A DNA stretch of 64,000 nt from an uncultured Verrucomicrobia subdivision 3 bacterium. GTDB lineage: Bacteria > Verrucomicrobiota > Verrucomicrobiia > Limisphaerales > UBA8199. The stretch covers positions 1-64,000 of the forward strand of contig CAIWMU010000093.1 of NCBI GenBank assembly GCA_903913865.1, read 5' to 3'. The notes below the pieces were generated by a model. The model had not been told where the DNA came from. It worked only from the letters and a program-made list of their open reading frames with translations, and did not search any database. Shown piece after piece: positions 14,078-49,752 of the stretch (position 1 is the first letter of the stretch; each line of letters opens with the position of its first letter). A program made the position numbers and the translations under genes.

Positions 14078-14081
14078 GGGA

Positions 14082-14609: not shown

Positions 14610-14623
14610 CAGACTTGGCAGGT

Positions 14624-15781
14624 TCAGAACAGGTCTGAGAGCAGGTTTCTGGGGCCCTGAGGGATGGCAACCCGTTTAATCGTTCGTTTCGGTGAGGACA
14701 AATCGATGAAATAGAGAGCGCAATCCTTGGGGTTGGCCCCCTTTTTCCCTGAAAGGTAGGTGGTGCTGACCGCCAATGTTTTGCCATCGTTTGAGATGGA
14801 GGGCTGAAAGAAGAAGGTGGTGTCCTCCTTGTCGAACTCTGCTTTCGTTTCAAATAACACCGTGCGGATGGGGGGTGATCCATCCAGAGGGATCTCCAGA
14901 AATCCGAGGATGCTCGATTTGTCATCCTTCGACCGGTCGATGTAGGGGGCGTAGAGGCGCTTTTGTGACATGGAATAAGTGAGGAGTCCCAGTTTTTCGG
15001 TTTCTTTGAGGGTTGCCTGAAGAGGCAGAACCCGCACTGGTTTTCCAGATTCGAAGAGGTTCAGGACCAGGGTCGGGCCGTTGGTGGTGAGGTAGCCGTA
15101 TTGACCTCCATCGATGGAAACGAGCACCTGCTGCTCCCCTTGCTGCTCCGATTCAGGAATGGTCACCTGCTTGCTCCGTTCGAAGGTCCTGGGGTTCATG
15201 ATCCCCATTTCAGTGGTCGTGAAGTAGAGGATGTCCCGTCCGGATCGTGTGGGCAGGACACAACTATCATCATCCCATCCGTCATTGTAGGACATCAGTC
15301 CGGTATCAAGATCGAGCCTTGCAAGCCGATTGGTCTTTGCCGGGAAGAACAGATGGGAACCGGAAACGGCCAGCGGCAGCATGAGCCGCGAGGCAGCTTC
15401 CTTCGCCGCTATCATGTAGATACGGGTCGGACCCTTGTGGAGGAACGGGACGACCGCCAGATGGAGGCTATCGTCGCTGTTCTTGGGGGAAGCCCAACTG
15501 ACCAGCACATCCTTCCCATTGTGCAGCCACTGGGCCCGCACCATCACCGGCAGGGTGGACTCCCCGCCATCTTCAACCATTGATGGAACGAAGAGGAGTT
15601 CGGATTTTTCGGTCTGCCGGTCGTAAACAGAGATGCCGACCAGACCCGAGGCCGGATCCAAAGCCGTGTAGAGGACTTTCTTGTCATCCGGGCTGAACGA
15701 GGTGCAGGCCAGGACGTAGATGAGAAGGGACGCAAGCCCGAACAGGGCGAGTGAACTGTTCCGCAGATTCCGGCATTTCAT
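14624..15781 (-). CDS. Lipoprotein, probable beta-propeller
   Basis: 385 residues from the ATG at 15781, preceded by a GGGAGGA Shine-Dalgarno; an in-frame ATG at 15886 is less likely. It begins with a lipoprotein signal (ALFGLASLLIYVLAC; lipobox VLAC). The rest consists of repeated strands such as 'SPDDKKVLYTALDP', 'LAVSGSHLFFPAKTNRLARLD' and 'SISNDGKTLAVSTTYLS', which recall TolB/WD40-like propellers that report stored values. It would be anchored in the periplasm or outer membrane. It heads the operon with the DUF2085 and radical SAM genes; its role there is unknown. Confidence 0.75.
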   Translation of the reverse strand: MKCRNLRNSSLALFGLASLLIYVLACTSFSPDDKKVLYTALDPASGLVGISVYDRQTEKSELLFVPSMVEDGGESTLPVMVRAQWLHNGKDVLVSWASPKNSDDSLHLAVVPFLHKGPTRIYMIAAKEAASRLMLPLAVSGSHLFFPAKTNRLARLDLDTGLMSYNDGWDDDSCVLPTRSGRDILYFTTTEMGIMNPRTFERSKQVTIPESEQQGEQQVLVSIDGGQYGYLTTNGPTLVLNLFESGKPVRVLPLQATLKETEKLGLLTYSMSQKRLYAPYIDRSKDDKSSILGFLEIPLDGSPPIRTVLFETKAEFDKEDTTFFFQPSISNDGKTLAVSTTYLSGKKGANPKDCALYFIDLSSPKRTIKRVAIPQGPRNLLSDLF

Positions 15782-25025: not shown

Positions 25026-25079
25026 GCTTAACCTGTGGACGGATGAGGTTCTCTTTTGAACGACCCAACACGAAGCCAA

Positions 25080-25799
25080 ATGAAGACAGTAATCGATGAA
25101 CTGAGGCGTGCTGCTCTGATCAATACACTCCGATCCTGCCAGCTCTTCAGGGGGTTGCCTGCGAGTGATTTGGGAGCCATCGCAGGAATCTCCCTGCTCA
25201 AATCCCTTCGCAAGGGTGAATATCTCTTTCGGGAGGGGGATCCGGCAAACGGCTTCTATGTCGTGCAGAAGGGGGCAATAAACGTGCATCGCGTCAACGC
25301 CTTGGGGAAGGAGCAGGTGATCCACATCTTCAGACCCGGGGAATCCCTTGCGGAGGCAACCCTGGCAACGGCCTCCGGATATCCAGCCGACGCCTTGGCG
25401 GTGGAGTCAACCCAGGTGTTTCTGGTGCAGAAGGCGGGGTTCATTGAACTGCTGAAGCACCATCCCGATCTCGGGTTGAGGATGCTGGCATCCATGAGCG
25501 TTCATCTGCGGATGCTTTTGGGACAGTTGGAGGACCTGACACTCAAGGATGTGGAGACCCGCCTCGCAAACTGGCTTATGCGGCGATGCCCTGAACCGCA
25601 TGCGGAGACTCCGGTCGAGGTGGAGTTGAACACCACGAAACGCCTGCTTGCGGCGGAATTGGGGACGGTGAGCGAAACTCTGTCCAGAACTCTGGCGAAG
25701 TTCCGGGAGCAGGGGCTGGTCCGGGTTAAGGCAAAGTCCGTTATGATCCTCTCCCCGAAGCGCTTGGAACAGTTGCTGAAGCGAAATTTGGGGGAGTGA
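25080..25799 (+). CDS. Crp/Fnr-family transcriptional regulator (Dnr-like)
   Basis: 239 residues from the ATG at 25080; a TTG at 25056 with GGATGAGG upstream is a credible alternative. A cNMP-binding-type beta-roll (about 20-130: 'LFRGLPASDLGAIAG', 'FREGDPANGFYVVQKGAINV', 'FRPGESLAEATL') is followed by a long dimer helix and an HTH domain ('LLAAELGTVSETLSRTLAKFREQGLV'). FNR N-terminal cluster cysteines are missing, so oxygen sensing by [4Fe-4S] is unlikely; Dnr/NnrR-like sensing (NO or redox, via heme) is possible. Immediately downstream begins the cytochrome region, which makes respiratory control plausible. Confidence 0.88.
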   Translation: MKTVIDELRRAALINTLRSCQLFRGLPASDLGAIAGISLLKSLRKGEYLFREGDPANGFYVVQKGAINVHRVNALGKEQVIHIFRPGESLAEATLATASGYPADALAVESTQVFLVQKAGFIELLKHHPDLGLRMLASMSVHLRMLLGQLEDLTLKDVETRLANWLMRRCPEPHAETPVEVELNTTKRLLAAELGTVSETLSRTLAKFREQGLVRVKAKSVMILSPKRLEQLLKRNLGE

Positions 25800-26027: not shown

Positions 26028-26357
26028 ATGAAAAAGCTAACATTACTCACCATCGCCCTGCTTGCCGCTGGCGTTGTTTCGATGCCCGCCGCCGATGCGA
26101 AGGCGATCTGGGAAAAGGATTGCACCAAGTGCCATGGCGCTGATGGCAAGGGCGAAACCAAGATGGGCCAGAAGGTCGGCGTGAAGAACATGGCCGATGC
26201 CAAGGTTCAGGCTGACATGAAGGATGCTGAAATGACAAAGGCCATCAAGGAAGGCGTCAAGGACAAGGAAGACAAGACCAAGATGAAGGCGTTTCCCGAC
26301 CTGACGGACGAGGAAATCAAGTCGCTGGTTGCGATGATTCGCGAGTTCAAGAAGTAA
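26028..26357 (+). CDS. Small periplasmic monoheme cytochrome c
   Basis: 109 residues. Signal peptide MKKLTLLTIALLAAGVVSMP cut after ADA, then 'CTKCHGADGKGETKMGQKVG' (one CxxCH heme site) and a distal 'KTKMKAFPDLTDEEI', where Met is the likely sixth ligand. This is the cytochrome c-551/c5 class of soluble electron carriers. It has the same length and layout as the protein at 35792-36121. A strong terminator follows, so it is transcribed alone, 3 kb from the main cytochrome operon. Confidence 0.93.
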   Translation: MKKLTLLTIALLAAGVVSMPAADAKAIWEKDCTKCHGADGKGETKMGQKVGVKNMADAKVQADMKDAEMTKAIKEGVKDKEDKTKMKAFPDLTDEEIKSLVAMIREFKK

Positions 26358-26459: not shown

Positions 26460-29024
<2,565 letters not shown>

Positions 29025-29334: not shown

Positions 29335-29790
29335 ATGCGCCTCTTTAACATGCCTCCGCAGATTGTGCGCCTCTGCCTGGTGACCATCGGCATCGTGGGC
29401 AGCTACCTGGTGGCCAGGGCCGTTCTCACGCCGCCCTCATTCAGGGAGTATGGATTTTTCCGCGGGGACGCCCTGAAGGACATCATGGCCCTCCCTCCCC
29501 AGTATGGGGGGAAGGTGTCGTGTGACGAGTGCCACAGCGACCAGTTCACAAAGCTCAACAAGGGTGGGCACAAGCGGCTTTCCTGCGAAGTCTGCCACGG
29601 ACCGGGATATGCCCATACACAGAGTCCTGATGCAGGGATGCACAAGCCTACTTTCACGGTTTGCAGCAAGTGCCACGAGGCAAATCCGTCCAGACCCAAG
29701 ACACACAAGCAGATTGTTCTGAAAGAGCATTATGCGGGGGGTAAATGCATGGAATGCCATGTTCCCCATTCCCCAGCGGAGGTTCCATGA
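29335..29790 (+). CDS. Membrane-anchored tetraheme cytochrome c (first module)
   Basis: 151 residues from the ATG at 29335; ATG 29350 and TTG 29233 are alternatives. One N-terminal helix (VRLCLVTIGIVGSYLVARAV) anchors a periplasmic domain with four CxxCH sites: CDECH, CEVCH, CSKCH, CMECH, plus extra histidines (GGHKRL, KTHKQI, KEHYAGG) that can serve as distal ligands. It heads an apparent operon: the stop overlaps the FeS gene start (ATGA). The order tetraheme cytochrome, four-cluster FeS protein, NrfD protein matches the CbcS-CbcT-CbcU arrangement known from Geobacter. The predicted role is to pass electrons between the FeS subunit and periplasmic cytochromes. Confidence 0.88.
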   Translation: MRLFNMPPQIVRLCLVTIGIVGSYLVARAVLTPPSFREYGFFRGDALKDIMALPPQYGGKVSCDECHSDQFTKLNKGGHKRLSCEVCHGPGYAHTQSPDAGMHKPTFTVCSKCHEANPSRPKTHKQIVLKEHYAGGKCMECHVPHSPAEVP

Positions 29791-30596
29791 GCCAGAAACT
29801 GAGTCGAAGAAACGTTCTTGCAAAAATCAGCGCCGCTTTGGCGGCGGCTTGTGCCGCTCCGGCTGCTCAGGCGGCGAAAGCCACTGTTCAGAAGGTGCTT
29901 GTAGAGTCCGGCGGAGCCAAAGGGTATGACCCCACCAAGCACAAGTGGGCGATGGCGATTGATGCATCGAGATGCATCGGCTGCGGCTCCTGTGCGGATG
30001 CCTGCAAAAAGGAAAACCATGTTCCTGAAGGTCACTACTACAGGACATGGATTGAGCGGTATGTCATCACGAAGCCCAAGCCGGGCAGTGACGAAGCGCG
30101 CGGGGAGGTGCTGGTTGATTCGCCCGAGGGGGGAATGCACGGGTTTGGCCCGTGCCCTGTGCCGAAGGAAGAACTCCTCCAATCATTTTTTGTGCCGAAG
30201 TTGTGCAACCTGTGCCTGCACTCCCCGTGCGCCCAGGTTTGTCCAGTGGGTGCCACGTTCGATTCTCCGGATGGTGCGGTTCTGGTGGACCGCAAATACT
30301 GCATCGGCTGCGGTTTCTGCATCCAGGCCTGCCCTTACGGCTGCCGGTTCATGAGCCCGGTGACGCATACGGCTGAGAAGTGCACCCTCTGCTATCATCG
30401 CATTACCCGCGGGTTGAAGCCCGCGTGCGTGGAGGTGTGCCCTGTGCAGGCGCGTATTTTTGGCGATCTGAAGAACCCTGTCCCTGATGATCCGTTGCAG
30501 ACGTTCTACAAGAACAACCGTGTGCAAACGCTCAAGCCGCATCTGGGAACCGAGCCGCGCGTGATGTATGCCGGCATAGATAAGGAGGTCCGGTAA
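29787..30596 (+). CDS. Tat-exported four-cluster [4Fe-4S] protein, NrfC-like (first module)
   Basis: 269 residues from the ATG at 29787, overlapping the upstream stop; a longer frame from 29745 is not used. Twin-arginine signal 'SRRNVLAKISAALAAACA'. Sixteen cysteines in four groups: CIGCGSCADAC, CNLCLHSPCAQVC, CIGCGFCIQAC and CTLC-x11-CVEVC. This is the DmsB/NrfC/PsrB pattern of an electron-wire subunit facing the periplasm. The NrfD-type gene follows with one base between. No molybdopterin catalytic subunit is encoded nearby, so the module probably links quinone and cytochromes rather than reducing DMSO or polysulfide. Confidence 0.92.
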   Translation: MSQKLSRRNVLAKISAALAAACAAPAAQAAKATVQKVLVESGGAKGYDPTKHKWAMAIDASRCIGCGSCADACKKENHVPEGHYYRTWIERYVITKPKPGSDEARGEVLVDSPEGGMHGFGPCPVPKEELLQSFFVPKLCNLCLHSPCAQVCPVGATFDSPDGAVLVDRKYCIGCGFCIQACPYGCRFMSPVTHTAEKCTLCYHRITRGLKPACVEVCPVQARIFGDLKNPVPDDPLQTFYKNNRVQTLKPHLGTEPRVMYAGIDKEVR

Positions 30597-30597
30597 T

Positions 30598-31869
30598 ATG
30601 GATGTCACCAATGTCATGGCCCATGTGGCCTCGAGCGTCGATGTGACCAACATTCTGGTGGAAGTTGCCCCCCGATTCGAGGGGTATGTCTATCCGAATG
30701 AGGCTTCACCCGAGCCCTTGTGGGGAATCCTAATCGTCATTTATCCCTACATCACGGGACTAGTGGCCGGCGCCTTCATCATGGCTTCGCTGGTTCGGGT
30801 ATTCCGGGTGCAGGCACTGGAGCCCGTTTATCGGTTGTCCCTCCTGACGGCGCTTTCGTTCATGCTTTGCGCCACCATGCCGCTGCTCCTGCATTTGGGC
30901 CATCCGGAGCGCTGCTACGAGATCATGATGACCCCCCATCTGACCTCGCCCATGGCGATTTTCGGATTTGTTTATGCGTGGTATTTGATGGCGGTTCTAT
31001 TGCTGGAATTGTGGTTTGATTACCGGCAGGACTTTGTCGAATGGTCACAGACGGAACCCGGCTTCAGAGGGATGCTATACAGGGCACTGATGCTTGGTGT
31101 GACCGATGAATCGGAAGCGGCAGTGAAGTTGGACATGAAACTTGGGTGGATCATCTCGATCATCGGTATTCCCTCTGCGTTTCTGCTGCACGGATATGTC
31201 GGTTTCATCTTCGGCTCGATCAAGGCGAATCCCTGGTGGGGCAACGTGTTGATGCCAATCATCTTCATTCTATCAGCGATGGTCTCCGGTATCGCCCTGT
31301 GTGTGTTGAACTACATGGTGCTGACGTGGGTCCGGCGCAAGAAGATCGACATGCGTTGTCTGGATATGATGGCCATGTTCCTGTTTTATGCCTTGGTGAT
31401 TGATGCTGCGGTCGAGGGGTTGGACTGGATCCACCGCATTTACTCCGCGGAGGAGGATTTTTCCGTCATCCGCTACGTGGCCACCGAGAAGCTGTTCTAT
31501 ACGCTCAACATCGGCCAGGCGCTCATGGGGACAGTTCTGCCTCTGCTGATGCTTGGGCTGAATCAAGTCGTCCGCAAGCGGTTGTCGGATATGGCTCGCA
31601 AACGCATGTATTTTGCCAGTGCGCTGATGATTGTGCTGGGTGTGTTCGCGATGCGTTGGAATGTCGTGATTGGCGGGCAGCTCTTCTCAAAGAGCCTGCG
31701 CGGATTCATGAGCTACAAGATGCAGTTTATCGGAATGGAGGGATGGTTGCTCGGGCTTGTAGTTTTGTCGATCCCGTTCATCATTTTGACGGTGATGATC
31801 AAGCTATTCCTGTCGGAACGGTTGCCAACTGCCGGCCATACTCCGCACCCAACTCCCCCGTCGAACTGA
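30598..31869 (+). CDS. NrfD/PsrC-type quinone-interacting membrane protein (first module)
   Basis: 423 residues with about nine to ten hydrophobic helices. It has family marks: 'GILIVIYPYITGLVAGAFI' in the first helix and 'LLHLGHPERCYEIM', the L-x-R/H-P-x-R type element. It lacks heme or FeS ligands. NrfD proteins bind menaquinone or ubiquinone at the periplasmic side and pass electrons to the FeS subunit; some relatives may also pump protons. The N-terminus has an unusual repeated 'DVTN' (residues 2-5 and 15-18). It is followed after 19 bp by the second module. Confidence 0.9.
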   Translation: MDVTNVMAHVASSVDVTNILVEVAPRFEGYVYPNEASPEPLWGILIVIYPYITGLVAGAFIMASLVRVFRVQALEPVYRLSLLTALSFMLCATMPLLLHLGHPERCYEIMMTPHLTSPMAIFGFVYAWYLMAVLLLELWFDYRQDFVEWSQTEPGFRGMLYRALMLGVTDESEAAVKLDMKLGWIISIIGIPSAFLLHGYVGFIFGSIKANPWWGNVLMPIIFILSAMVSGIALCVLNYMVLTWVRRKKIDMRCLDMMAMFLFYALVIDAAVEGLDWIHRIYSAEEDFSVIRYVATEKLFYTLNIGQALMGTVLPLLMLGLNQVVRKRLSDMARKRMYFASALMIVLGVFAMRWNVVIGGQLFSKSLRGFMSYKMQFIGMEGWLLGLVVLSIPFIILTVMIKLFLSERLPTAGHTPHPTPPSN

Positions 31870-31888
31870 ACTCCTGCATGGCCCTGTG

Positions 31889-32533
31889 ATGAACCAAAAC
31901 ACAAAAATAACAGTCGTTGTCGGGGCGCTTGCGGTGGCTTTCCTTTCGTTGGCCGCTGGTTTCTGGGCAAATGCCTGGGGGCATCAGGAGGCGCGTGAGG
32001 AAATCCCCCTGGTGGATTCCCAGTTCAACACCCCCGACACGTTTCGCCAATCCTACGCGGAGTTGATGCGGATCAAGGCCGATCTGTCCGATTTCGATTG
32101 CTATGCCTGCCATGACAAGGGCAAGCCGCCACCCATCCGTTATGACAAGAACCATAACATCGTGGTTCCACAGGAGCATGCCGGATCCATCGTGATGGCT
32201 CACGGGTCCCACGACCGGAACAATCTTTGTTTCAACTGCCATGACGAGCAGAACCTTGAACTGTTGCAGACACGTGATGGCAAGCAGTTGAAGCTGTTTG
32301 AGAGCACCCGCTTATGTGGAAGCTGCCACGGTCCGACTTACCGCGATTGGGATGCGGGTGTACATGGACGAACGGGCGGCTTCTGGGATGCCAAACCGAA
32401 TCAGGAGAGGACACGCCTGAACTGCGTGGACTGTCACAATCCGCACAAACCGAAAATTCCCGGACGTCACCCGGCCCCGCCGCCCCACATGCTCCATCCT
32501 GTTCGTCAGGTTGAGCACGCAACCACACACTGA
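31889..32533 (+). CDS. Membrane-anchored tetraheme cytochrome c (second module)
   Basis: 214 residues from ATG 31889 (a GTG sits directly before it). An N-terminal helix (ITVVVGALAVAFLSLAAGFW) anchors the protein. Four heme sites are CYACH, CFNCH, CGSCH and CVDCH; spacing is longer than in the first tetraheme protein (29335-29790), which it resembles only in heme number and topology. It precedes another FeS/NrfD pair and so repeats the same gene order. Predicted periplasmic electron acceptor or donor for that pair. Confidence 0.88.
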   Translation: MNQNTKITVVVGALAVAFLSLAAGFWANAWGHQEAREEIPLVDSQFNTPDTFRQSYAELMRIKADLSDFDCYACHDKGKPPPIRYDKNHNIVVPQEHAGSIVMAHGSHDRNNLCFNCHDEQNLELLQTRDGKQLKLFESTRLCGSCHGPTYRDWDAGVHGRTGGFWDAKPNQERTRLNCVDCHNPHKPKIPGRHPAPPPHMLHPVRQVEHATTH

Positions 32534-32534
32534 C

Positions 32535-33485
32535 ATGAACAGTTCAAATTCCGCTTCTGGTGCCGTCCAGACGGGCGATGGAATGAATCGGCGCAGTTTC
32601 CTGAGAGCTTCCGCAGTCCTGACAACCGGGTTGGCCGCACTAGCCGCCAGCCTGAAGCCCCTGATGGAGCTTGAGGATTTTCCGACCGCCGAGCGGTTCA
32701 TGCAGAAGTATTACACGGAACTGACTCCCACCGAGATGGACAAGGTTCTCAAGCGGATCGCTGACGAGACCGAGGCCCAATATGGAAAGAGACCCCATGT
32801 GCGGGATCTCAAGCCGATGGATGGGGTCGAGTTTGCCTACTGCCTCAACCTGACCCGCTGCATCGGTTGCCGGAAGTGCGTCCACGCCTGCGTGAAGGAA
32901 AACAACCAGTCGCGCAACCCGGAAATCCAATATATTCGTGTTCTGCGTCTGCCTCACGGCTCGATGGACATGGAAAAGGCGGAGCATCATTACAACCCTG
33001 AGAAGGTTCCCGAGCCCGGATTTTTCAACATGCCGGTTCAGTGCCAGCAGTGCAAGAACCCGCCCTGCGTGAAGGTGTGCCCTGTCCATGCCACGTGGAC
33101 CGATACAGACGGAATTACGGTCATTGATTACGACTGGTGCATCGGCTGTCGCTATTGCGAAGCCGCCTGCCCCTATTGGGCGCGACGTTTCAATTTTACC
33201 AAGCCGTTCATTCCGAAGGATAAGCTCAACCCTGAGATGGCCTATCTTGGCAACCGTCCCCGTCGGCAGGGTGTGATGGAGAAGTGTCACTTTTGCATCC
33301 AGCGCACCCGTGATGGCCGCTATCCCGCCTGCCTTGAAGTATGTCCGGTCGGCGCGCGCAAGTTTGGCAATGTCTTGGATCCGAGCAGCGAAGTCGGAAC
33401 CATCCTGAGAACCAAGCGCGTGTTCATCCAACTCAAGGAAGAGTTGGGGACATCACCCCGATTCTTCTACTATTTCGACGTATGA
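32535..33485 (+). CDS. Tat-exported four-cluster [4Fe-4S] protein (second module)
   Basis: 316 residues from the ATG at 32535, directly after the upstream TGA; the GTG at 32511 would overlap and is less likely. Twin-arginine 'NRRSFLRASAVLTTGLAALA'. Cluster motifs CIGCRKCVHAC, CQQCKNPPCVKVC, CIGCRYCEAAC and CHFC-x11-CLEVC. Compared with the first FeS protein it has a longer N-terminal insert before the first cluster ('EMDKVLKRIADETEAQYGKR') and a longer loop between clusters one and two, so the two modules are not a recent duplication. The stop overlaps the NrfD-type start. Confidence 0.92.
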   Translation: MNSSNSASGAVQTGDGMNRRSFLRASAVLTTGLAALAASLKPLMELEDFPTAERFMQKYYTELTPTEMDKVLKRIADETEAQYGKRPHVRDLKPMDGVEFAYCLNLTRCIGCRKCVHACVKENNQSRNPEIQYIRVLRLPHGSMDMEKAEHHYNPEKVPEPGFFNMPVQCQQCKNPPCVKVCPVHATWTDTDGITVIDYDWCIGCRYCEAACPYWARRFNFTKPFIPKDKLNPEMAYLGNRPRRQGVMEKCHFCIQRTRDGRYPACLEVCPVGARKFGNVLDPSSEVGTILRTKRVFIQLKEELGTSPRFFYYFDV

Positions 33486-34741
33486 TTCAAGGAGTCCGAA
33501 ACTACCTGGTGTTTCTCTTTCGCTGTGGTCGCATCGCGTTCGTTGGCGATTGGCGTTACTATGCCTGGATGGGGATTCTCACGGTCCTTATCCTGCTGGG
33601 CATCAACGCCTATGCCAAGCAGTTCGTTCACGGCTTGATCACGACAGGGATGAGTGATCAGGTGTCCTGGGGGGTCTATATCTCGAACTTCACATTCCTC
33701 GTCGGCGTGGCCGCTGCGGCCGTGATGTTGGTGATCCCTGTTTACATCTATAATAACGAGGAATTGCACGATCTGGTGATCTTCGGTGAGTTGCTGGCTG
33801 TGGCGGCGATTCTGATGTGCCTTGCGTTTGTGACGGTGGATTTGGGAAGGCCTGACCGCTTCTGGCATTTGATACCGGGGATCGGGCAGTTCAACTTTCC
33901 GGCCTCCATGCTCAGTTGGGACGTCTTGGTGCTCAATGGCTATCTGCTTTTGAACGTCCACATCTGCGGTTACCTGATTTACTGCCGCTACAAGGGAGAA
34001 AAGCCTGCAAAGTGGTTCTACATCCCCTTCGTATTCGTCGCGATTTTTTGGGCCGTTTCCATTCATACCGTCACCGCCTTCCTCTACGTTGGGCTTGGTG
34101 GCCGGCCGTTCTGGAATTCAGCGATAGTCGGACCCCGGTTCCTTGCCTCCGCATTCACGGCAGGTCCCGCGTTGATCATTCTGGCCCTGCAGATCATCCG
34201 GCGGGTCACGGACTATCGGATCACTGACAAGGCGTTGCTCACCCTTCGGAGCATTGTTCAGGTTTCGATGCTCATCAACGTGTTCCTGCTCGCAAACGAA
34301 ATTTTCAAGGAATTTTACTCCGGCAATCTGCACGTCGCGTCTTCGAAGTATCTGTTCCTCGGATTGCACGGGCATCATGCCTTGGTCCCGTGGATCTGGA
34401 CCGCCATCACCTTCAACATGATCGCCATGGTGCTGCTGATTCTGCCTGTCAGCCGGAGCTTGCGGTGGTTGAACCTCACCTGCGTTCTTGCCATTGTCGG
34501 TATCTGGATCGAGAAGGGGATGGGACTGGTGATTCCCGGCTTCATCCCGACGCCGCTGGGCGAGATGGTGGAATATTCCCCCTCGTTGAACGAGACCCTG
34601 ATCTGCACCGGCATCTGGGCGTTTGGACTCCTCTGCTACACGATCTTTTTGCGGATGTCCGTGCCCATCCTGCAGGGGCGTCTCTCCAAGGCCAACGAAT
34701 CGCAAGGCCCCGGGGAAGCCCCCGGTGCCCCAGCTCATTGA
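33482..34741 (+). CDS. NrfD/DsrP-type quinone-interacting membrane protein (second module)
   Basis: 419 residues from the ATG at 33482 (ATGA overlap). About ten hydrophobic helices; 'DQVSWGVYISNFTFLVGVAAAAVM' and 'VTVDLGRPDRFWHL' are typical of the larger HmcC/DsrP-like branch of the NrfD family, while the first-module paralogue belongs to a different branch. 'GLHGHHALVPWIWT' carries histidines near a membrane boundary. Predicted to exchange electrons with the quinone pool for the second FeS/tetraheme pair. Confidence 0.9.
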   Translation: MIQGVRNYLVFLFRCGRIAFVGDWRYYAWMGILTVLILLGINAYAKQFVHGLITTGMSDQVSWGVYISNFTFLVGVAAAAVMLVIPVYIYNNEELHDLVIFGELLAVAAILMCLAFVTVDLGRPDRFWHLIPGIGQFNFPASMLSWDVLVLNGYLLLNVHICGYLIYCRYKGEKPAKWFYIPFVFVAIFWAVSIHTVTAFLYVGLGGRPFWNSAIVGPRFLASAFTAGPALIILALQIIRRVTDYRITDKALLTLRSIVQVSMLINVFLLANEIFKEFYSGNLHVASSKYLFLGLHGHHALVPWIWTAITFNMIAMVLLILPVSRSLRWLNLTCVLAIVGIWIEKGMGLVIPGFIPTPLGEMVEYSPSLNETLICTGIWAFGLLCYTIFLRMSVPILQGRLSKANESQGPGEAPGAPAH

Positions 34742-34758
34742 GCATTTCACCACACTCT

Positions 34759-35193
34759 GTGCAACTCACCGGACAGGACGCACGTGAATCCTTGAACTCT
34801 CATGTGCAGCGCAGGGGGGCTGAGATCCATGAAAAACACGGTCCCCGCATCGGGTGGAATGAGTTGCTCCTGATTCTTGCGGACCGCGCCTGTGTCCGTT
34901 ATCCGTGCGACATTGTTTTCGACAGCACTCCTCTTCAAGCCGGGGAACTGGCCCATCCGGTTCCCAAAGGGGAACGCCCGGAGGATGGATTCCTCATGCA
35001 TGTCCATCCGTTTTTCAGCACACAGCCGGAGCAGGTTCCGCTGCTGGTTCTCTACCAGATCGTTGTCGTGAATTACGGTATGTTCGCATCCTCCGAGGAT
35101 GCCGAGGCGTTTGGGTCGAGCGTGCTGGGGATTTCGCAGGACGACTATTATGCGGCGCTCTGCCGTCTGGCGGACCAGTTGGCATCCGCCTGA
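34759..35193 (+). CDS. Conserved-looking cytoplasmic protein of unknown function
   Basis: 144 residues if the GTG at 34759 is used (TTG at 34792 is possible); the frame is open further upstream through the previous gene, but that part has no coding character. No signal or membrane helix. Notable segments are 'RRGAEIHEKHGPRIGWNELLLILADR', 'DGFLMHVHPFF' and 'VVNYGMFASSEDAEAFGSSV'. The codon usage matches neighbours and it is the last gene of the two-module operon (17 bp after the NrfD gene). I do not recognise the family; an assembly or regulatory role for the complex is possible only by position. Confidence 0.6.
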   Translation: MQLTGQDARESLNSHVQRRGAEIHEKHGPRIGWNELLLILADRACVRYPCDIVFDSTPLQAGELAHPVPKGERPEDGFLMHVHPFFSTQPEQVPLLVLYQIVVVNYGMFASSEDAEAFGSSVLGISQDDYYAALCRLADQLASA

Positions 35194-35791: not shown

Positions 35792-36121
35792 ATGAAAAAG
35801 CTAGCAGCATTGATCGTGGCCGGTTTGGCGTTCTCTGCCCTGACGGCCGGTGCAGCCGATGGCAAGACCATCTATGAGGAACAATGTGCCAAGTGCCATG
35901 GCAAGGACGGCAAGGGCCAGACGACCATGGGTAAAAAGTACGAGGCCAAGGATTACAGCGATGCTAAGGTTCAGGAAAAACTGACTGACGCCGCCGGAAT
36001 CAAGGCTGTGAAGGAAGGCTACAAAAACGCCGAAGGCAAGGTGGTTATGAAGCCCGCGGAAAGCCTTACAGATGATGATATCAAGGCGGTGATCGCCCAC
36101 CTGCGCACCCTCAAGAAGTAA
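35792..36121 (+). CDS. Small periplasmic monoheme cytochrome c, paralogue of 26028-26357
   Basis: 109 residues from ATG 35792. Signal peptide MKKLAALIVAGLAFSALTAG, then 'CAKCHGKDGKGQTTMGKKYE' and the distal 'VVMKPAESLTDDDIKAVIAH'. It is closely related in layout to the cytochrome at 26028 (same length, similar KxYxAKD/KVGVKN region). It precedes the heptaheme and undecaheme cytochrome genes and is a good candidate for their soluble redox partner. Confidence 0.93.
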   Translation: MKKLAALIVAGLAFSALTAGAADGKTIYEEQCAKCHGKDGKGQTTMGKKYEAKDYSDAKVQEKLTDAAGIKAVKEGYKNAEGKVVMKPAESLTDDDIKAVIAHLRTLKK

Positions 36122-36257: not shown

Positions 36258-37739
36258 ATGTCGAATCCATCTCCCGAACCGCCCCCCTCCAGCAGCCAGT
36301 CCGCATCCCTCGTCCGCAATTGGATAACCAGTTTGGGTGTTATCATCGCCGTCGGCGGGTTATTCTCGTTTTTCCTCCTGTTGGTGATGGATGCGATTTC
36401 TACGAACTCAAATCCGTACCTGGGCATCCTGGCTTACATGATAGCGCCAGGGTTTGTGGTGATTGGATTGGGACTCGGGTTGGCTGGAATTCTGATTCGC
36501 CGTCGCCAGGCGATGAAGAGGACCGGTCTGAGGCCACCGCTTAAGATTGATTTCAGCCTGCCGCAGAGTCGGAAGGCGTTTGGCGCGTTCCTGATCTGCG
36601 CCACCTTCGTACTGTTGCTGTCGGCGGTGGGCAGTTACAAGACCTACCACTTCACAGAATCTGTGCAGTTTTGCGGCGAATCCTGCCATAAGGTGATGGG
36701 GCCCGAATTGATCACCTATCGACAAGGTTCCCATGCCCGCGTCCTTTGTGCCGAGTGTCACATTGGCAAGGGTGCTGGGTGGTATGTGAAGTCAAAACTT
36801 TCGGGCACCTATCAGGTGTATGCCACCACTCTGGACAAGTATCCACGTCCGATTCCCACGCCCATCAAGAACCTGCGCCCCGCACAGGAGACCTGCGAGC
36901 AGTGCCACTGGCCGGCCAAGTTCGTGGGGAATCTGGAACGGACCTATAATTATTACCTTACAGACGAGACCAACACACAATTCTCGGTTCGGATGCTGAT
37001 GAAGGTCGGTGGCGCGGACCCCACACATGGTCCGGTTGGTGGCATTCACTACCACATGAATGTCGCAAACAAAATTGAATACGTAGCCAGCGACGAAGCC
37101 CGCCAGAAGATTCCCTGGGTTCGGTTGACCGATCCGCAGGGTGTGGTCACGGAGTTTCGGACATCTAAATTTACGAATGCTGTGGATACCGCCGACATGC
37201 GGCGGATGGACTGCATGGATTGCCATAACCGGCCGGCGCACCGCTACAAGACGCCGAACAATGCCGTCAACCTGGCGATGACGCTCGGGAACATCGATCC
37301 GTCGATCCACTGGGTGAAGAGCAACTCCGTGTTCATCCTCACAAGACCTTACACGAACGAGACCCAGGCGCTGCAAAGCATAGCGACTTATCTGGAGTCG
37401 AAATACACGGGTGATGCACGTGTGAAGAAGGTGATTTCCGAGGTGCAGAAGATTTATCAGGGGAATTTCTTCCCTGAGATGAAGGCCAGCTGGGCCGCCT
37501 ATCCCGATAACATCGGGCACAAGGACTGGCCGGGCTGTTTCCGCTGTCACGACGGTCAGCACAAGACAGCCGATGGCAAGAAGTCCATCACGGCGAGCGA
37601 TTGCAGCGCCTGTCATACCATTCTGGCTCAGGGCAACGGCCCTGATCTGCTGCAACTGACTCCCACGAATCAGAAATTCAAACATCCGGGAGACGACGTA
37701 GATGGAGGCTGTAATGATTGTCATACTGGCGGACTATAA
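36258..37739 (+). CDS. Three-TM heptaheme cytochrome c
   Basis: 493 residues. Three predicted helices (about 22-47, 54-82, 107-128) precede a large periplasmic domain. The first heme site is unusual: CGESCH (Cys139, Cys143, His144), a CX3CH motif, in 'FCGESCHKVMGPEL'. Six normal sites follow: CAECH, CEQCH, CMDCH, CFRCH, CSACH, CNDCH. The 'C..CHKVM..E...Y..GSHA...CAECHIG.G' start resembles NapC/NrfH-type quinol dehydrogenases, but those have one helix and four or five hemes. A quinol-oxidising or electron-hub role is inferred. The following gene overlaps its 3' end. Confidence 0.85.
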   Translation: MSNPSPEPPPSSSQSASLVRNWITSLGVIIAVGGLFSFFLLLVMDAISTNSNPYLGILAYMIAPGFVVIGLGLGLAGILIRRRQAMKRTGLRPPLKIDFSLPQSRKAFGAFLICATFVLLLSAVGSYKTYHFTESVQFCGESCHKVMGPELITYRQGSHARVLCAECHIGKGAGWYVKSKLSGTYQVYATTLDKYPRPIPTPIKNLRPAQETCEQCHWPAKFVGNLERTYNYYLTDETNTQFSVRMLMKVGGADPTHGPVGGIHYHMNVANKIEYVASDEARQKIPWVRLTDPQGVVTEFRTSKFTNAVDTADMRRMDCMDCHNRPAHRYKTPNNAVNLAMTLGNIDPSIHWVKSNSVFILTRPYTNETQALQSIATYLESKYTGDARVKKVISEVQKIYQGNFFPEMKASWAAYPDNIGHKDWPGCFRCHDGQHKTADGKKSITASDCSACHTILAQGNGPDLLQLTPTNQKFKHPGDDVDGGCNDCHTGGL

Positions 37740-39927
37740 TCGGAACGGGGCAGGGGTCCGGCGGGTGGCGTCTACAGCGCCGACGCGGACTCCGGCTACT
37801 GGATGGCTGCGAGGCCTGTTCCTCGCGATCCTGACCATGGGATTCATGGTTTCTGCTTTGGCGGCAGAGCCCAAGAATCCGAATGCGTCATGTCTTGAGT
37901 GTCACGGGGACAAGGACCTGTGGAAGACGAACGCGGCAGGCAAGGGAGTGTCCCTGTTTGTCGAGGAGGCCAAGTATGCGGCCGGGGTCCACAGGACCAA
38001 CAGTTGCGCCAGCTGCCATTCCAGCATAACCAGCCAGCACCCTGACGACAATGTGCCGGTGAAGCCGGTGAATTGTGCATCGTGTCATGAGGAAGCAGGC
38101 AAGGTTTACGCCAACAGTATTCACGGCGTCAGCCACACGATGGGGGCTTCCGGCGCTGCCAGTTGTTCGGATTGCCACGGCAAGCATGACATTCTTCCAA
38201 ACAAGAATCCGGCCTCACGCATTTTCAAGCTGAACCTGCCGGGAACGTGCGCCGCCTGCCATAGCAACGCCGGGTTGACGAAGGAATATGAGATGAAGCG
38301 TCCGGAAGCGGCTTCCCATTACATGGACAGCATCCATGGCCAGAAGCTGCTGAAGCAGGGATTGCTCGTCGCACCTTCCTGCAACGATTGTCATGGGGGA
38401 CACGGGATCAAGCGCGCGGTGGACCGGGATTCACCGATCAACTCGTTGAACGTGGCAAAAACCTGCGGCAAGTGCCATCATGGGGTGGAGGAGACTTACC
38501 TTAAGAGTGTGCACGGCCAGTTGCTCCTCAAGGGGGACAAGCGGGGACCTGTGTGCACGGATTGCCATAGCGCGCATGAAGTCGAGGCTCCTCGCAACGG
38601 GCACTTCAAGATGGCGAGTGATCAACGCTGCGGCAGGTGCCATGAGGACAAACTGACCCACTATCGCGAAACCTACCATGGCAAGGCGATGGCCCTTGGG
38701 AAGCCCAATGTCGCCTCAGATGTCGCGGCCTGCTATGATTGTCATGGTCACCACGACGTGTTGCCTCCCTCGAATCCTCTTTCCAGGCTGTCCAGCACGA
38801 ACATTGTGGCTACTTGCAAGACCTGCCATCCCAAGGCGAATGCCGGATTCGCCGGATACAAGCCGCACGCCAACCCGTTGGATGGCCAAAACTTCCCCTC
38901 ATTGCACGCGACCTTCATCTTCATGACGGCGCTGCTGGTCGGGGTGTTTGTATTCTTTGGGGCTCATACAGGTGCCTGGCTGGTTCGGGCGGGCTACCTT
39001 TATTGGACCGACTCCAAGAAGTTCCGGGAGGCGAAGATCAGTTCCCAGGAGGGGGGCGAGTGGTTCACCCGGTTTGCGCCGTTTGAGAGGTTTCTCCACT
39101 TTTTGGTGGTCACGAGCTTCCTGTTGCTGGTCATCACCGGCATGCCGTTGAAGTTTTACTACACCGATTGGGCGAAGGCGCTCTTCCACTTCATTGGCGG
39201 TGCTGAGACGGCCAGAGCGCTACACCGTATTGGGGCGATCGTCACCTTCCTATACTTCGGCCTGCATGTGGTATCCGTCGCCGTGAGGTGCTGGGTGGGA
39301 CGCGGGAAGATGCGCGACCCGAAGACCGGCAAGATACAGTTGAGCCGGATCATCACCATCCTGTTTGGGCCTGACTCAATGATCCCGACACTGCAGGACG
39401 GGAAGGACTTTGTGGCCCATAACAAGTGGTTCTTTGGCAGGGGACCGAAGCCGGATTTTGACCGCTGGACCTATTGGGAGAAGTTTGATTACTTCGCCGT
39501 GTTCTGGGGTGTGTTCATCATCGGTTCATCCGGGTTGATCATGTGGTATCCGGAGTTTTTCACCCAGTTCATGCCTGGTTGGATCATCAACATCGCCTTG
39601 ATCATCCATTCGGATGAAGCCCTCCTTGCGGCTGGCTTCATATTCTCGATCCACTTCTTCAATACGCACTTCCGGATTGAGAAGTTCCCGATGGATACAG
39701 TCATCTTCTCGGGACGCGTCTCCAAGAACGAGATGTTGCACGAGCGAAAGCGGTGGTATGATCGGCTTGTTGCCGAGGGGCGGTTGGACGATTACCGCGT
39801 GCGGGATGAATGGTTGCGATGGAAGAGTATCGCCCGGACCTTCGGCTACATCTTCTTCGGTCTGGGGGTGGTGTTGCTGATCCTCATCATCTACGCCATG
39901 GCCACCCGTCTTTTGACGGGGCATTGA
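37702..39927 (+). CDS. Undecaheme cytochrome c fused to a membrane cytochrome b domain (CbcL-like architecture)
   Basis: 741 residues from ATG 37702; ATG 37714 and GTG 37765 (just after the upstream stop) are alternatives. A signal peptide near residues 38-55 leads to a domain with eleven CxxCH sites: CLECH, CASCH twice, CSDCH, CAACH, CNDCH, CGKCH, CTDCH, CGRCH, CYDCH, CKTCH (to about residue 375). The C-terminal half has five to six membrane helices with histidines suited to heme b ('FERFLHFLVV', 'ALHRIGAI', 'FGLHVVSV', 'IIHSDEALLAAGF', 'FSIHFFNTHF'), like FdnI/HydC cytochrome b. This fusion matches Geobacter CbcL, an inner-membrane quinol oxidoreductase used for low-potential electron export. 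Orthology is not proven. Confidence 0.85.
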   Translation: MEAVMIVILADYNRNGAGVRRVASTAPTRTPATGWLRGLFLAILTMGFMVSALAAEPKNPNASCLECHGDKDLWKTNAAGKGVSLFVEEAKYAAGVHRTNSCASCHSSITSQHPDDNVPVKPVNCASCHEEAGKVYANSIHGVSHTMGASGAASCSDCHGKHDILPNKNPASRIFKLNLPGTCAACHSNAGLTKEYEMKRPEAASHYMDSIHGQKLLKQGLLVAPSCNDCHGGHGIKRAVDRDSPINSLNVAKTCGKCHHGVEETYLKSVHGQLLLKGDKRGPVCTDCHSAHEVEAPRNGHFKMASDQRCGRCHEDKLTHYRETYHGKAMALGKPNVASDVAACYDCHGHHDVLPPSNPLSRLSSTNIVATCKTCHPKANAGFAGYKPHANPLDGQNFPSLHATFIFMTALLVGVFVFFGAHTGAWLVRAGYLYWTDSKKFREAKISSQEGGEWFTRFAPFERFLHFLVVTSFLLLVITGMPLKFYYTDWAKALFHFIGGAETARALHRIGAIVTFLYFGLHVVSVAVRCWVGRGKMRDPKTGKIQLSRIITILFGPDSMIPTLQDGKDFVAHNKWFFGRGPKPDFDRWTYWEKFDYFAVFWGVFIIGSSGLIMWYPEFFTQFMPGWIINIALIIHSDEALLAAGFIFSIHFFNTHFRIEKFPMDTVIFSGRVSKNEMLHERKRWYDRLVAEGRLDDYRVRDEWLRWKSIARTFGYIFFGLGVVLLILIIYAMATRLLTGH

Positions 39928-45505: not shown

Positions 45506-46633
45506 ATGTCGTATTCGATGTCAGATTTGTTGCAGCTGGTGGTCTCGGAAGGGTCTTCCGACCTCCATATCCGTGTGGGAGCCCCGCCCGTCATCCGGGT
45601 TCACGGCATCCTGCACCGTGTTGAGGGTCCGTCTCTCACACCGGAGGCCACTGAGGAGTTGATGCGGAGCATCACCTCCGAGGATCATATTCAGCACGTT
45701 CGTGAGCGGGGTGGCGCCGACTTCGGTTTTGCCTTCGGCGATATGGCACGGTTCCGTGTCAGCGTGTTCAAGGAAAAAGGAAACTTCGGGATGGTTCTGC
45801 GTCAGATTCCGAGCAAGCTGCTGACGATGGAGCAGATTGGCATCCCCATGTCCGCCAGAGAGTTGCTCTACAAGCCGCGCGGACTTGTTCTGGTAACAGG
45901 CCCCACCGGCTCTGGTAAGACAACCACTCTGGCCTCGATGATCAACATCATCAATGAGGAGCGGGATGAGGCTCACATTATCACCATTGAGGATCCCATC
46001 GAATATTACCACAAGCACAAGAAGGCGCTTGTGACGCAGCGTGAGATCGGAGTCGATGTTCCGAATTTCGCCGAGGCTCTCCGCCGCGCTCTCCGTCAGG
46101 ATCCTGATGTTGTTCTGGTTGGTGAAATGCGCGATTTGGAGACGATTGATGCTGCCATCACGGCTGCTGAAACGGGTCACTTGGTCTTCGGAACCCTGCA
46201 CACCACGGGTGCCGCGAAAACCATTGATCGTATCGTCAACGCATTCCCGACAAACCAGCAGGAGCAGATCCGGATCCAGCTGTCCACGGTGATGCAGGCG
46301 GTCATCTCGCAGTTGCTCGTTCCACGGGTGGACAAGCCCGGGCGCGTGGCTATTTTTGAAATCATGGTTAACACCCCCTCCATCGCCGCCCTGATCCGCG
46401 ACAACAAGACCTTCCGGATCCAATCGGACATCCAGACCGGTGCCAAATACGGGATGGTGACGTTGGATGGATTCCTCATGGAGAAGTATCTGGCGGGGAT
46501 GATTTCCCGGGATGAGGTTGTCACGAAGGCGCAGGATCCGATCACCATTCAAGCCAAGCTTCAGGAAATGGAGCTGGCGCAATCTGTCGGGGCAGACGCC
46601 GGGGCGGTTGCCCAAGGCAAATCCCAGAAGTAA
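45506..46633 (+). CDS. pilT: PilT-type retraction ATPase
   Basis: 375 residues after TTGAGGATTTGAAGC. It is compact, without the long N-terminal domain or zinc site. '[21 protein letters not shown]' starts it as in PilT; Walker A '[10 protein letters not shown]', '[19 protein letters not shown]', '[15 protein letters not shown]' and '[20 protein letters not shown]' are all present. A C-terminal '[15 protein letters not shown]' stands where classical PilT has AIRNLIRE. It depolymerises pili in twitching systems, which suggests that the locus makes a dynamic filament rather than only a static secretion pseudopilus. Confidence 0.94.
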
Positions 46634-46644
46634 CGCTTTAAGTT

Positions 46645-48366
46645 ATGGCGGACGATGTCTCAAATCCACTGCTCGCGCTGGTCAAAGATCAGGGGCTGAT
46701 CGACGACCTCCAATTCGAGGAGGTTCATGCCGAGTTCAAGCGAAGCGGGAAGCCCGTATCCCTTATCCTGCAGGACTTTGGCATCATGGCCATGGAGGAC
46801 ATCCTTCAGGCGATGGCCAACCACCTGAGCACGGATGTGGTGACCATCCGGGAGCGGGACATGACACCGCAACTCATCCAGAGTGTGCCGGGCAAAACGG
46901 CACGCACCTATCAGTGCATCCCCGTCGCACTGGTGGGCACCACGCTCCAGATTGCCCTGATGGAGCCGCTTGATCCGGGTCGGATCGATGAACTGGGTTA
47001 CATCCTCAAGGGTAAGGAACTCCAGATTGTCGTTGCAGATCCTGCTGCAATCCAGAAGGTTCTGGAGAAGTTTTATTCGGATGGCGGGGATGATGGCGAA
47101 AGCATGTCCGAACTCCTCAAGGAACTTGGGGGGGATGAGACGATTGCAAAAGAGGTTGAGGTTCTAGAGGAAACGGACGATGCAAGGGTCATGGAGAATC
47201 TGGCCAACGGGGCGCCGATCGTGCGTTTCGTGAACCTTGTGGTCTTCCAGGCGGTGCAGGATCGTGCGAGCGATATTCATTTCGAGCCTTTTGAAACTGA
47301 ATTCAGGATCAGGTATCGTGTGGACGGTGCCCTGTATGAGATGTCCCCGCCGCCGAAGCACCTTGCTTTGCCTGTGGTGTCGCGCATCAAGGTCATGGCG
47401 AACCTGAATATTTCCGAGCGCCGTGTTCCTCAGGACGGTCGTATCAACATGCGCCTCGGCGGCAATCGTTCAGTCGATTTGCGTGTGTCCACGCTCCCAA
47501 CCCAGTTCGGCGAATCGGTCGTGCTTCGCGTGCTGGATCGTTCCGCCGTCAATCTTGAGATCGAATCCCTCGGGTTGCCCAAGTTCATTCACGAGTATGT
47601 GAATGACGTCATCCTGCGTCCAAACGGGATTTTCGTTGTCACCGGGCCCACGGGTTGCGGCAAGACGACGACGCTCTACTCCTGCCTGCGCCGGGTGAAT
47701 ACGATTGATTCCAAACTGCTCACCGCCGAGGATCCCGTCGAATATGATATCGAGGGCATCATGCAGGTGGCCATTCACGAAAGCGTGGGGCTGACCTTCA
47801 GCAAGGCACTCCGGTCCTTCCTGCGTCAGGATCCCGACATTATCATGGTCGGTGAAATGCGCGATCTTGAGACGGCGCAGATTTCCATTCAGGCCTCGCT
47901 GACCGGTCACTTGGTGCTCAGCACGCTTCACACCAACGATGCTCCCGGTGCCGTCACCCGTTTGATTGATATGGGTGTGGAGCCGTTCCTGATTTCATCC
48001 ACCCTGATGGGTGTGCTCGGCCAGCGGTTGGTTCGCCGTGTGTGCAGGGATTGCCGCACGCCGTTCGAACCCACGGAAAGCCAGTTGAACACGCTCAACC
48101 TCTCCCCGCACGATCTTGGCGACAAGGTCTTTTATTACGGGCGAGGGTGCGGCACCTGCAATGATACCGGCTACAAGGGCCGGAAAGGAATCTTTGAACT
48201 GATGGTCATTGCCGAGGCGCTCCGCACCTTGATCAATGAGCGCGCGCCGACAGTCGTGCTGCGCCAGAAGGCGGTCGAACTCGGGATGGTCACCCTCCGC
48301 GAGGACGGTCTGCGAAGCATTTTTGATGGAGACACATCCATCGAGGAAGTCGTCAAATATACATAA
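46645..48366 (+). CDS. pilB: PilB/GspE-type secretion ATPase (second copy)
   Basis: 573 residues, 11 bp after pilT. It has the same domains as the first copy: MshEN-like N-terminus, Walker A 'GPTGCGKTTT' (Cys instead of Ser), 'LLTAEDPVEYDIEGIMQVA', '[15 protein letters not shown]', 'GHLVLSTLHTNDAPGAVTRL', and the zinc site CRDC / CGTC. Clear divergence from the copy at 43698 points to distinct roles, or partnership in a mixed hexamer. It lies directly before pilC and so is the most likely extension ATPase for that platform protein. Confidence 0.93.
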   Translation: MADDVSNPLLALVKDQGLIDDLQFEEVHAEFKRSGKPVSLILQDFGIMAMEDILQAMANHLSTDVVTIRERDMTPQLIQSVPGKTARTYQCIPVALVGTTLQIALMEPLDPGRIDELGYILKGKELQIVVADPAAIQKVLEKFYSDGGDDGESMSELLKELGGDETIAKEVEVLEETDDARVMENLANGAPIVRFVNLVVFQAVQDRASDIHFEPFETEFRIRYRVDGALYEMSPPPKHLALPVVSRIKVMANLNISERRVPQDGRINMRLGGNRSVDLRVSTLPTQFGESVVLRVLDRSAVNLEIESLGLPKFIHEYVNDVILRPNGIFVVTGPTGCGKTTTLYSCLRRVNTIDSKLLTAEDPVEYDIEGIMQVAIHESVGLTFSKALRSFLRQDPDIIMVGEMRDLETAQISIQASLTGHLVLSTLHTNDAPGAVTRLIDMGVEPFLISSTLMGVLGQRLVRRVCRDCRTPFEPTESQLNTLNLSPHDLGDKVFYYGRGCGTCNDTGYKGRKGIFELMVIAEALRTLINERAPTVVLRQKAVELGMVTLREDGLRSIFDGDTSIEEVVKYT

Positions 48367-48380
48367 CCGAAGGATCCGGT

Positions 48381-49700
48381 ATGCCTACATTCAACTATGT
48401 TGCCATGGATGCCAATGGCAAGGAGACCAAAGGTACGCTCGAAGTGGCGAGCCAGAACGAGGCCATCGCCCGGGTGAAGGACATGAACCTGTTCCCCACG
48501 AAGATCGTGGAGGCGGGGAAGCCCAAGTCCGGGAAGGATGACAAGAAGTCAGCCCCGGCCAGGGCGGGTGCCAAGCCCAAAAAGAAGGGCCAGATCAACC
48601 TCAACATCAAGATTCCCGGTCTTGGGGGTGGTGTTAAATCCAAAGTTCTCACCACATTCACACGGCAGCTGGCCACGCTGGTGGATGCCGGTTTGCCGCT
48701 GCTGCGCGGTTTGCGGGTGCTTGAGAAACAGGAGCGTAATGCGACTTTGAAGGGAATCATCGCCGAGCTGGCGCTTTCGATCGAGGGTGGCAGCACCTTT
48801 TCCGAAGGCTTGGCCCAGCATCCCAAGGTGTTCAACCGCCTGTTCGTCAACATGGTGAAGGCCGGCGAGCTGGGTGGTGTGCTTGAAGTCGTTCTGAACC
48901 GTCTTTCCGAGTTCATGGAAAAGGCGCAGAAGATCAAAGGCAAGGTCATCGCCGCGATGTTCTACCCGGTGGCGGTGCTCGTGGTTGCGACCGCGATTCT
49001 GCTGATCCTGATGGTGAAGGTCGTTCCTTCCTTCAAATCAGTGTTCGAGGGCATGTTGGAAGGATCCCAACTTCCCGCCTTCACACGGTTGGTTCTGGGC
49101 ATTTCCGAGATGATCAAGGATCACATCGTGATCACCTCCGGCATCATCTTCACGATCTGGGTGATTTTCATGCTGTGCATCAAGACAAAGCTCGGTCGGC
49201 ATCTCTGGGATAAGTTCAAGCTCAAGGTCCCCGCCGTGGGACCCGTTGTGAGCAAGGTTTCCATCGCCCGGTTTACCCGGACGTTGGGCACTCTGGTGAG
49301 CAGCGGTGTGCCGATTTTGCAGGCCCTGACGATCGTCAAGGAAACGGCCGGAAACGTCATCATCAGTAATGCCGTTAACGCCGTCCATGAAAGCGTGAAG
49401 GAGGGTGAAACCATTACCGCCCCCTTGGAAGCCTCCGGAGTGTTTCCCCCGATGGTCATCAGCATGGTGGACGTCGGTGAGCAAACCGGCGCACTGCCTG
49501 AAATGTTGCTGAAGATCGCGGACAACTACGATGAAGAAGTGGACAACGCCGTGTCCGCGATGACATCCCTCCTGGAACCGATCATGATCGTGTTTCTGGC
49601 CGTGGTCGTCGGCAGTATCGTCATCGCGATGTTCCTGCCCCTGATCGAACTCATGAACCGTGTCGGTGATTCCGGCGGTGGCGGCAAGAAGGACGAGTAA
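48381..49700 (+). CDS. pilC: PilC/GspF inner-membrane platform protein
   Basis: 439 residues. It starts 'MPTFNYVAMDANGKETKGTL', the usual N-terminus, then a Lys/Pro/Ala-rich linker (about 50-75) before two GspF domains, each with 'FTRQLATLVDAGLPLLRGL' or 'FTRTLGTLVSSGVPILQAL', and three membrane helices (VAVLVVATAILLILMVKVV; VITSGIIFTIWVIFMLCI; near the end LLEPIMIVFLAVVVGSIVIA). It couples ATPase motion to pilin insertion. A terminator follows. Confidence 0.95.
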   Translation: MPTFNYVAMDANGKETKGTLEVASQNEAIARVKDMNLFPTKIVEAGKPKSGKDDKKSAPARAGAKPKKKGQINLNIKIPGLGGGVKSKVLTTFTRQLATLVDAGLPLLRGLRVLEKQERNATLKGIIAELALSIEGGSTFSEGLAQHPKVFNRLFVNMVKAGELGGVLEVVLNRLSEFMEKAQKIKGKVIAAMFYPVAVLVVATAILLILMVKVVPSFKSVFEGMLEGSQLPAFTRLVLGISEMIKDHIVITSGIIFTIWVIFMLCIKTKLGRHLWDKFKLKVPAVGPVVSKVSIARFTRTLGTLVSSGVPILQALTIVKETAGNVIISNAVNAVHESVKEGETITAPLEASGVFPPMVISMVDVGEQTGALPEMLLKIADNYDEEVDNAVSAMTSLLEPIMIVFLAVVVGSIVIAMFLPLIELMNRVGDSGGGGKKDE

Positions 49701-49719
49701 CCGCTCCTGTGGATTTTCA

Positions 49720-49752
49720 AACCCCTTCTCCGGATCTTCCGGGGGAGGGGTT
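49720..49752 (+). terminator. Rho-independent-like terminator after pilC
   Basis: ACCCCTTCTCCGG (about 49721-49733) pairs with CCGGGGGAGGGGT (49739-49751), one A-T pair more on the outside and some G-T pairs, with a 5-nt loop, followed by TCTTTATT. It separates the ATPase/platform operon from the toxin-antitoxin and pseudopilin genes. Confidence 0.8.

Follow-up and report, generated by a model that had tools for sequence, protein, structure and literature searches.

We analyzed a 64,000-nucleotide stretch of DNA (the window) from an uncultured Verrucomicrobia subdivision 3 bacterium (contig CAIWMU010000093.1), which contains two respiratory modules in a head-to-tail array at positions 29335-34741. 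Each module, M1 (29335-31869) and M2 (31889-34741), encodes a tetraheme c-type cytochrome, an iron-sulfur (FeS) protein of twin-arginine translocation (Tat) type whose cysteines form four [4Fe-4S] clusters, and a membrane subunit of the NrfD family (Table 1). We cautiously favor the reading that M1 and M2 are two independently evolving inner-membrane quinol:periplasmic cytochrome c oxidoreductases that now stand side by side and feed a multiheme network, and that M2 is probably gated by cyclic AMP (cAMP) or cyclic GMP (cGMP) in relatives of this bacterium.

The gating proposal comes from a domain in the M2 membrane subunit of related bacteria. We compared 87 M2 relatives, which were picked by similarity and are not a random sample. 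In 46 of them, some from the same genus, NrfD carries a cyclic nucleotide monophosphate (cNMP)-binding domain of about 155 residues that the window's own M2 NrfD lacks. The first sign of this insert was a whole-genome search that returned M2 NrfD as two matches roughly 450 bp apart in one open frame. The inserts are 150-161 residues long and occupy one exact site, following the motif RRVT (with a few variants) and corresponding to residues 243/244 of the window's M2 NrfD. This site falls in the loop between transmembrane helices 5 and 6, which the distribution of positive-inside loops places in the cytoplasm. The inserts match PF00027 (59-72 bits, cut-off 27.5), their best matches among solved structures (PDB) are to PKA RI-alpha, and the FGE motif and arginine of the phosphate-binding cassette are invariant in 46 of 46. 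Mean divergence is 47% within the insert versus 19% for the remaining protein. Because the insert is a cNMP-binding domain, we ruled out an intein. A heme- or FeS-sensing CRP-type domain was also ruled out, since no cysteine is broadly conserved and a single histidine is found in just 26 of the 46 sequences. In one further locus (L144, 9001-11453), the M2 NrfD match spans about 2.4 kb, the longest of all, which may reflect a frameshift or a larger insert.

An AlphaFold model of a same-genus insert form has a mean predicted local distance difference test (pLDDT) score of 76, with values mostly between 85 and 92 in the domain. Foldseek matched this one chain both to subunit C of alternative complex III (ACIII) and to PKG CNB-B (TM 0.80, 1.8 Å), and PKA domains were matched as well. 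The matches also included cyclic-nucleotide-gated channels and SLC9C1 exchangers, which likewise carry a cNMP-binding domain on a membrane transport protein; in M2 relatives, however, the domain sits inside an NrfD-type respiratory subunit. Class III cyclases are encoded in all 30 genomes checked. In about half of the M2 relatives, the domain probably acts as a cAMP- or cGMP-dependent switch for quinol oxidation or ion movement. The literature we searched, which covers few subscription journals, does not describe any NrfD-type protein that carries a cyclic-nucleotide domain. The usual view of respiratory quinol dehydrogenases is that gene expression and substrate supply control them. If the proposal is true, a cNMP domain in the membrane subunit would mean direct second-messenger control of electron flow. 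The insert and plain versions of M2 NrfD are otherwise about 85% identical, so that natural pairs with and without the domain would make an ideal comparison.

The insert is patchily distributed. When its columns are left out of the alignment, the trees mix insert and plain forms, with at least nine changes on NrfD alone. A tree of the FeS protein and NrfD together gives 14 insert/plain changes, six of them forced by well-supported branches, and a single clade of insert carriers is rejected (approximately unbiased, AU, p=2e-111). The nearest tree relatives of the window's M2 include insert carriers. In the order sample, at least 26 genomes have the insert versus 14 close plain genomes; in a phylum-wide sample, 4 of 388 genomes carry it. 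These four are 97-100% complete and all belong to a different family of the class. Plain rows of the ingroup retain Ile239 and Tyr245 in every case (33/33), and the association of residues with the insert is mostly gone some 10 residues away, apart from a few positions such as 189. This retention and fading linkage argue against repeated clean deletions, making it unlikely that plain copies arose that way, and favor recombination. We infer that the insert segment has been exchanged between alleles. As a tentative extension, M2 may be a ligand-gated respiratory complex in many Verrucomicrobiota. Cytoplasmic cAMP or cGMP would open or close quinol oxidation or a coupled ion transfer, thereby controlling electron flow to periplasmic and extracellular acceptors, and the domain would be exchanged between lineages by within-gene recombination. 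We hold this wider proposal less firmly than the reading given at the outset.

An earlier note on this DNA had described two tetraheme/FeS/NrfD sets in a row with coupled or near-coupled starts. Gene coordinates, CxxCH counts and Pfam matches confirm this description, and the gene junctions overlap or almost touch (29787/29790, 30596/30598 and 33482/33485). The note had also argued that the second set is not a fresh duplication, and our comparisons bear this out. M1 and M2 share 19% identity over 226 aa of NrfD and 34% in the FeS protein, which rules out a recent duplication; by sequence, they are old, distant relatives. No M1 protein scores above the cut-off of an NCBIfam subunit family. The best scores of its FeS protein (TtrB 187, DsrO 158 and NrfC 147 bits) each fall under their cut-offs, and its NrfD reaches 49 bits against NCBIfam NrfD, where the cut-off is 348. 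The M2 unit also includes a fourth gene, which immediately follows the NrfD gene in the majority of M2 loci; homologues of 30-41% identity are also encoded a few kb from several M2-like modules of greater divergence. We count it as part of the unit because of this recurrence; its product has no Pfam or NCBIfam match. The earlier note had included neither this gene nor the regulator, class I cytochromes, NapC-type protein and CbcL-type protein of the remaining locus.

We compared the distribution of the two modules across 196 genomes of the order. M2 is present in 71, M1 in 36 and both in 21. Most M1 loci that are separate from M2 still have a NapC-type protein, a CbcL-type protein or both next to M1. 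M1 is part of a distinct core unit with hexaheme NapC-like and 11-heme CbcL-like proteins, and this unit also occurs without M2. Since M1 mostly keeps these neighbors where M2 is absent or elsewhere, the pair in the window is a juxtaposition of two separate units. A third set, comprising a multiheme protein (10-11 hemes), an FeS protein and an NrfD-type protein, adjoins the same cluster in L055 (14936-18202) and in L224 (reverse strand, after the CbcL-type gene). Near M2 in L104 (312-6829) and L053 (4945-7389) there is a GltD-like FAD/FeS oxidoreductase, accompanied by a possible Rieske-type or six-heme protein. Module relatives in named records are nearly all from Verrucomicrobiota. Four records titled Proteobacteria, Klebsiella pneumoniae or Akkermansia muciniphila (L097, L098, L118 and L131) contain M2 genes 76-84% identical to those of the window, and these titles are probably wrong bin labels.

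We examined the rest of the respiratory chain in this genome, a 6.27-Mb draft that is 95% complete. The earlier note had proposed that the modules replace a bc1 complex or ACIII. A profile search found no bc1-type cytochrome b in the genome, as that proposal expects, and the modules do have a quinol:cytochrome c architecture. The second half of the claim failed. The third and last NrfD match of the genome is ActC, on contig C71, within a complete ACIII operon that encodes a pentaheme ActA, an ActB of 1085 aa, ActC, ActD, ActE and ActF (named from gene order, heme counts and family matches). This operon stands beside a putative oxidase: directly following it (L010, 7078-10003, minus strand) are a divergent COX1-like subunit and two small CcoO/CcoP-like heme proteins, which may form an oxidase or a nitric oxide reductase. 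An aa3-type oxidase, a cbb3 oxidase (NF011053, above cut-off) and complex I are also encoded. A complete ACIII in the same genome contradicts the replacement of complex III, which we regard as very improbable. With ACIII, both oxidases and complex I present, the modules are better viewed as additional quinol outlets. ACIII does resemble them in having an NrfD-fold quinol site, FeS clusters and a multiheme cytochrome, and among known structures, the membrane part of M2 is matched best by its subunit C. Unlike in ACIII, however, no ActB-type FeS/Mo-like fusion, ActD, ActE or ActF is found around M1 and M2.

The modules might instead be the membrane-bound portion of a dedicated terminal reductase, with the gene for its catalytic subunit at another place in the genome. 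The earlier note had named this arrangement as the one that would overturn its reading. In about 17 other genomes, NapA is encoded a few kb from M2-like paralogs of 55-66% identity. A Planctomycetota genome (L145, Sedimentisphaerales) likewise has a module 71% identical to M2 beside NapA; its cluster at 10213-15333 combines this module with an octaheme cytochrome, NapA, a NapB-like 4-heme protein and a fourth-gene homologue. The window's own M2 branch in Verrucomicrobiota differs: no member has a strong NapA match on the same contig, and where a genome has both this branch and a distant paralog (e.g. G005, G114 and G167), NapA adjoins the distant paralog. In this genome, NapA is absent (the best TIGR01706 match, in G000, has an E value of 4e-7, far short of a NapA score), PF02335 gives just weak stray matches in other multiheme proteins and no NrfA, and DsrA has no match. 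As the earlier note had stated, the locus lacks a molybdenum or tungsten catalytic subunit; PF00384 is absent from the window's contig, and its matches in the genome are only on C128 and C57. The sole other molybdenum enzyme of the genome, a DMSO-reductase type II protein on C128, could in principle be the missing partner, but it comes with a heme b subunit and a chaperone of its own. In that cluster (L011, 4040-11807, minus strand), the heme b subunit appears to be fused to cytochrome c domains. We consider a dedicated reductase improbable. The range of settings suggests that the M2 module family is a general quinol dehydrogenase wired to differing acceptors.

We compared M1 and M2 with characterized complexes. 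CbcSTU (Cbc4) of Geobacter is described as a menaquinol:ferricytochrome c oxidoreductase, and CbcT and DsrO are reported to be orthologous (PMC11434368). The likeness to CbcSTU drawn in the earlier note holds for the oxidoreductase architecture and for the set and order of subunits (c-type cytochrome, FeS protein and membrane protein, without a catalytic subunit). The window differs in having two dissimilar copies and a fourth gene after M2, and relatives differ in having the cNMP domain. The Sir system of Shewanella serves sulfite respiration. Its SirCD proteins, an FeS and NrfD quinol dehydrogenase, can take the place of CymA and supply electrons to several acceptors in the periplasm (PMC11434368); M1 and M2 share this FeS and NrfD plan. 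M2 is also related to DsrMKJOP: its NrfD scores above the DsrP cut-off, and its FeS protein aligns with DsrO over nearly the full length (161.5 bits, below the cut-off of 200). Membership in that complex is nevertheless ruled out by the sub-threshold DsrO score, by a cytochrome with four CxxCH motifs where DsrJ is triheme, by the absence of DsrM and DsrK from the cluster, and by the lack of a DsrA match in a genome that has aerobic oxidases. A remnant of DsrMKJOP left over from sulfur metabolism would account for the DsrO- and DsrP-like subunits, but the tetraheme cytochrome and the lack of DsrM, DsrK and DsrA weigh against it, and the four-gene unit is strongly conserved rather than decaying. 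We give that origin the lowest probability of those considered.

If the favored reading is correct, the NrfD subunit would oxidize quinol near the periplasmic face, and the Tat-exported FeS protein would pass the electrons to the tetraheme cytochrome. From there, electrons would spread through monoheme cytochromes c and the neighboring NapC-type and CbcL-type multiheme proteins. The final acceptors would differ by species, with oxidases used here and probably a multiheme/porin conduit used in relatives. M2 is a DsrP-type unit of four genes that occurs in many settings, and the PKA-like cNMP domain in the cytoplasmic loop of NrfD would be a switch in about half of its relatives.

For Verrucomicrobia from humic waters and soils, porin-cytochrome systems have been reported. 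He et al. described novel porin-multiheme cytochrome clusters in Verrucomicrobia without naming the inner-membrane step, or donor (PMC5615132). Cytochrome/barrel pairs similar in design to that complex are found near M2 in relatives. The three pairs examined each combine a barrel-like protein of about 720 aa with a 7-heme cytochrome that resembles the DmsE/GSU2203 (MtrA) type at a score below cut-off. A barrel homologue is encoded close to M2 in 35 of 86 loci (about 40%; 22/46 with the insert and 13/40 plain), mostly 3-6 kb away. We could not assign the barrel to the MtrB family, as it matches neither PF11854, NCBIfam nor any solved structure. M2 is a candidate for the inner-membrane donor of these systems.

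The same cytochrome/barrel pairs are compatible with electron flow in either direction. The Qrc complex of sulfate reducers transfers electrons from cytochrome c to quinone. Both modules could run in this way, with periplasmic multiheme cytochromes delivering electrons (e.g. from extracellular Fe(II) or reduced humics) to quinone. Weak Qrc matches under the cut-offs (131 bits for the M2 FeS protein with QrcC and 51 bits for NrfD with QrcD) and the aerobic oxidases, which would serve as an electron drain, fit this possibility. The M2 subunit set is nearer to DsrOP than to Qrc, though, the cluster has no QrcB-like subunit, and the relatives of 55-66% identity adjoin NapA, a reductase that requires quinol oxidation. 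We judge reversed flow unlikely, if less so than a dedicated reductase. Such a Qrc-like direction is one of several points that weigh against quinol oxidation into a gated multiheme network. The gating cannot apply to the window's copy of M2, which has no cNMP domain. A check of about 20% of this genome revealed no 7-heme/barrel pair, and any porin conduit lies outside the window. A Pfam MtrB search was also negative, although the same model misses the barrels of relatives too.

The genes surrounding the modules are listed in Table 1. Another species of this genus (L046) has them in the same order, and a class I cytochrome gene lies upstream of M1 or M2 in most loci. The multiheme protein with a b561-type membrane domain is likened to CbcL by architecture.

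Table 1. Coordinates of the M1 and M2 modules and neighboring genes in the window
Feature	Position	Strand	Evidence
Crp/Fnr-family regulator, upstream of modules	25056..25799	+	cNMP_binding and HTH_Crp_2; orthologue in L046
Class I monoheme cytochrome c	26028..26357	+	CxxCH
M1 tetraheme c-type cytochrome, 151 aa	29335..29790	+	4 CxxCH; Pfam Cytochrome_C7
M1 Tat-type 4x[4Fe-4S] protein	29787..30596	+	Twin-Arg start, four Cys clusters; Fer4_11 85 bits
M1 NrfD membrane subunit, unassigned branch	30598..31869	+	Pfam PF03916 125 bits
M2 tetraheme c-type cytochrome, 214 aa	31889..32533	+	4 CxxCH
M2 Tat-type 4x[4Fe-4S] protein, DsrO-like	32535..33485	+	RRSFLRAS Tat motif, four Cys clusters
M2 NrfD membrane subunit, DsrP type	33482..34741	+	PF03916 138 bits; NCBIfam DsrP (NF045798) 427.5 bits, cut-off 350
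Conserved protein of ~144 aa, fourth gene of M2 unit	34759..35193	+	Immediately 3' of M2 NrfD
Class I monoheme cytochrome c	35792..36121	+	PF00034 53 bits
Hexaheme NapC/NrfH-type quinol-interacting protein	36258..37739	+	6 CxxCH; Cytochrom_NNT 43 bits; NrfH 54 bits, below cut-off
11-heme cytochrome c fused to b561-type membrane domain, CbcL-like architecture	37702..39927	+	11 CxxCH; Ni_hydr_CYTB 31.0 bits, cut-off 30.1

Two further features of the window were recorded. A prolyl oligopeptidase/DPP-IV-type peptidase is encoded on the minus strand at 26460-29024, and its N-terminal region matches the VHL beta domain (PF01847, 37.5 bits, cut-off 21), VHL being best known from animals. A type IV pilus/type II secretion-like cluster occupies 45506-58651 on the plus strand and encodes several pseudopilin-like proteins, along with one protein of 1301 aa without a Pfam match.

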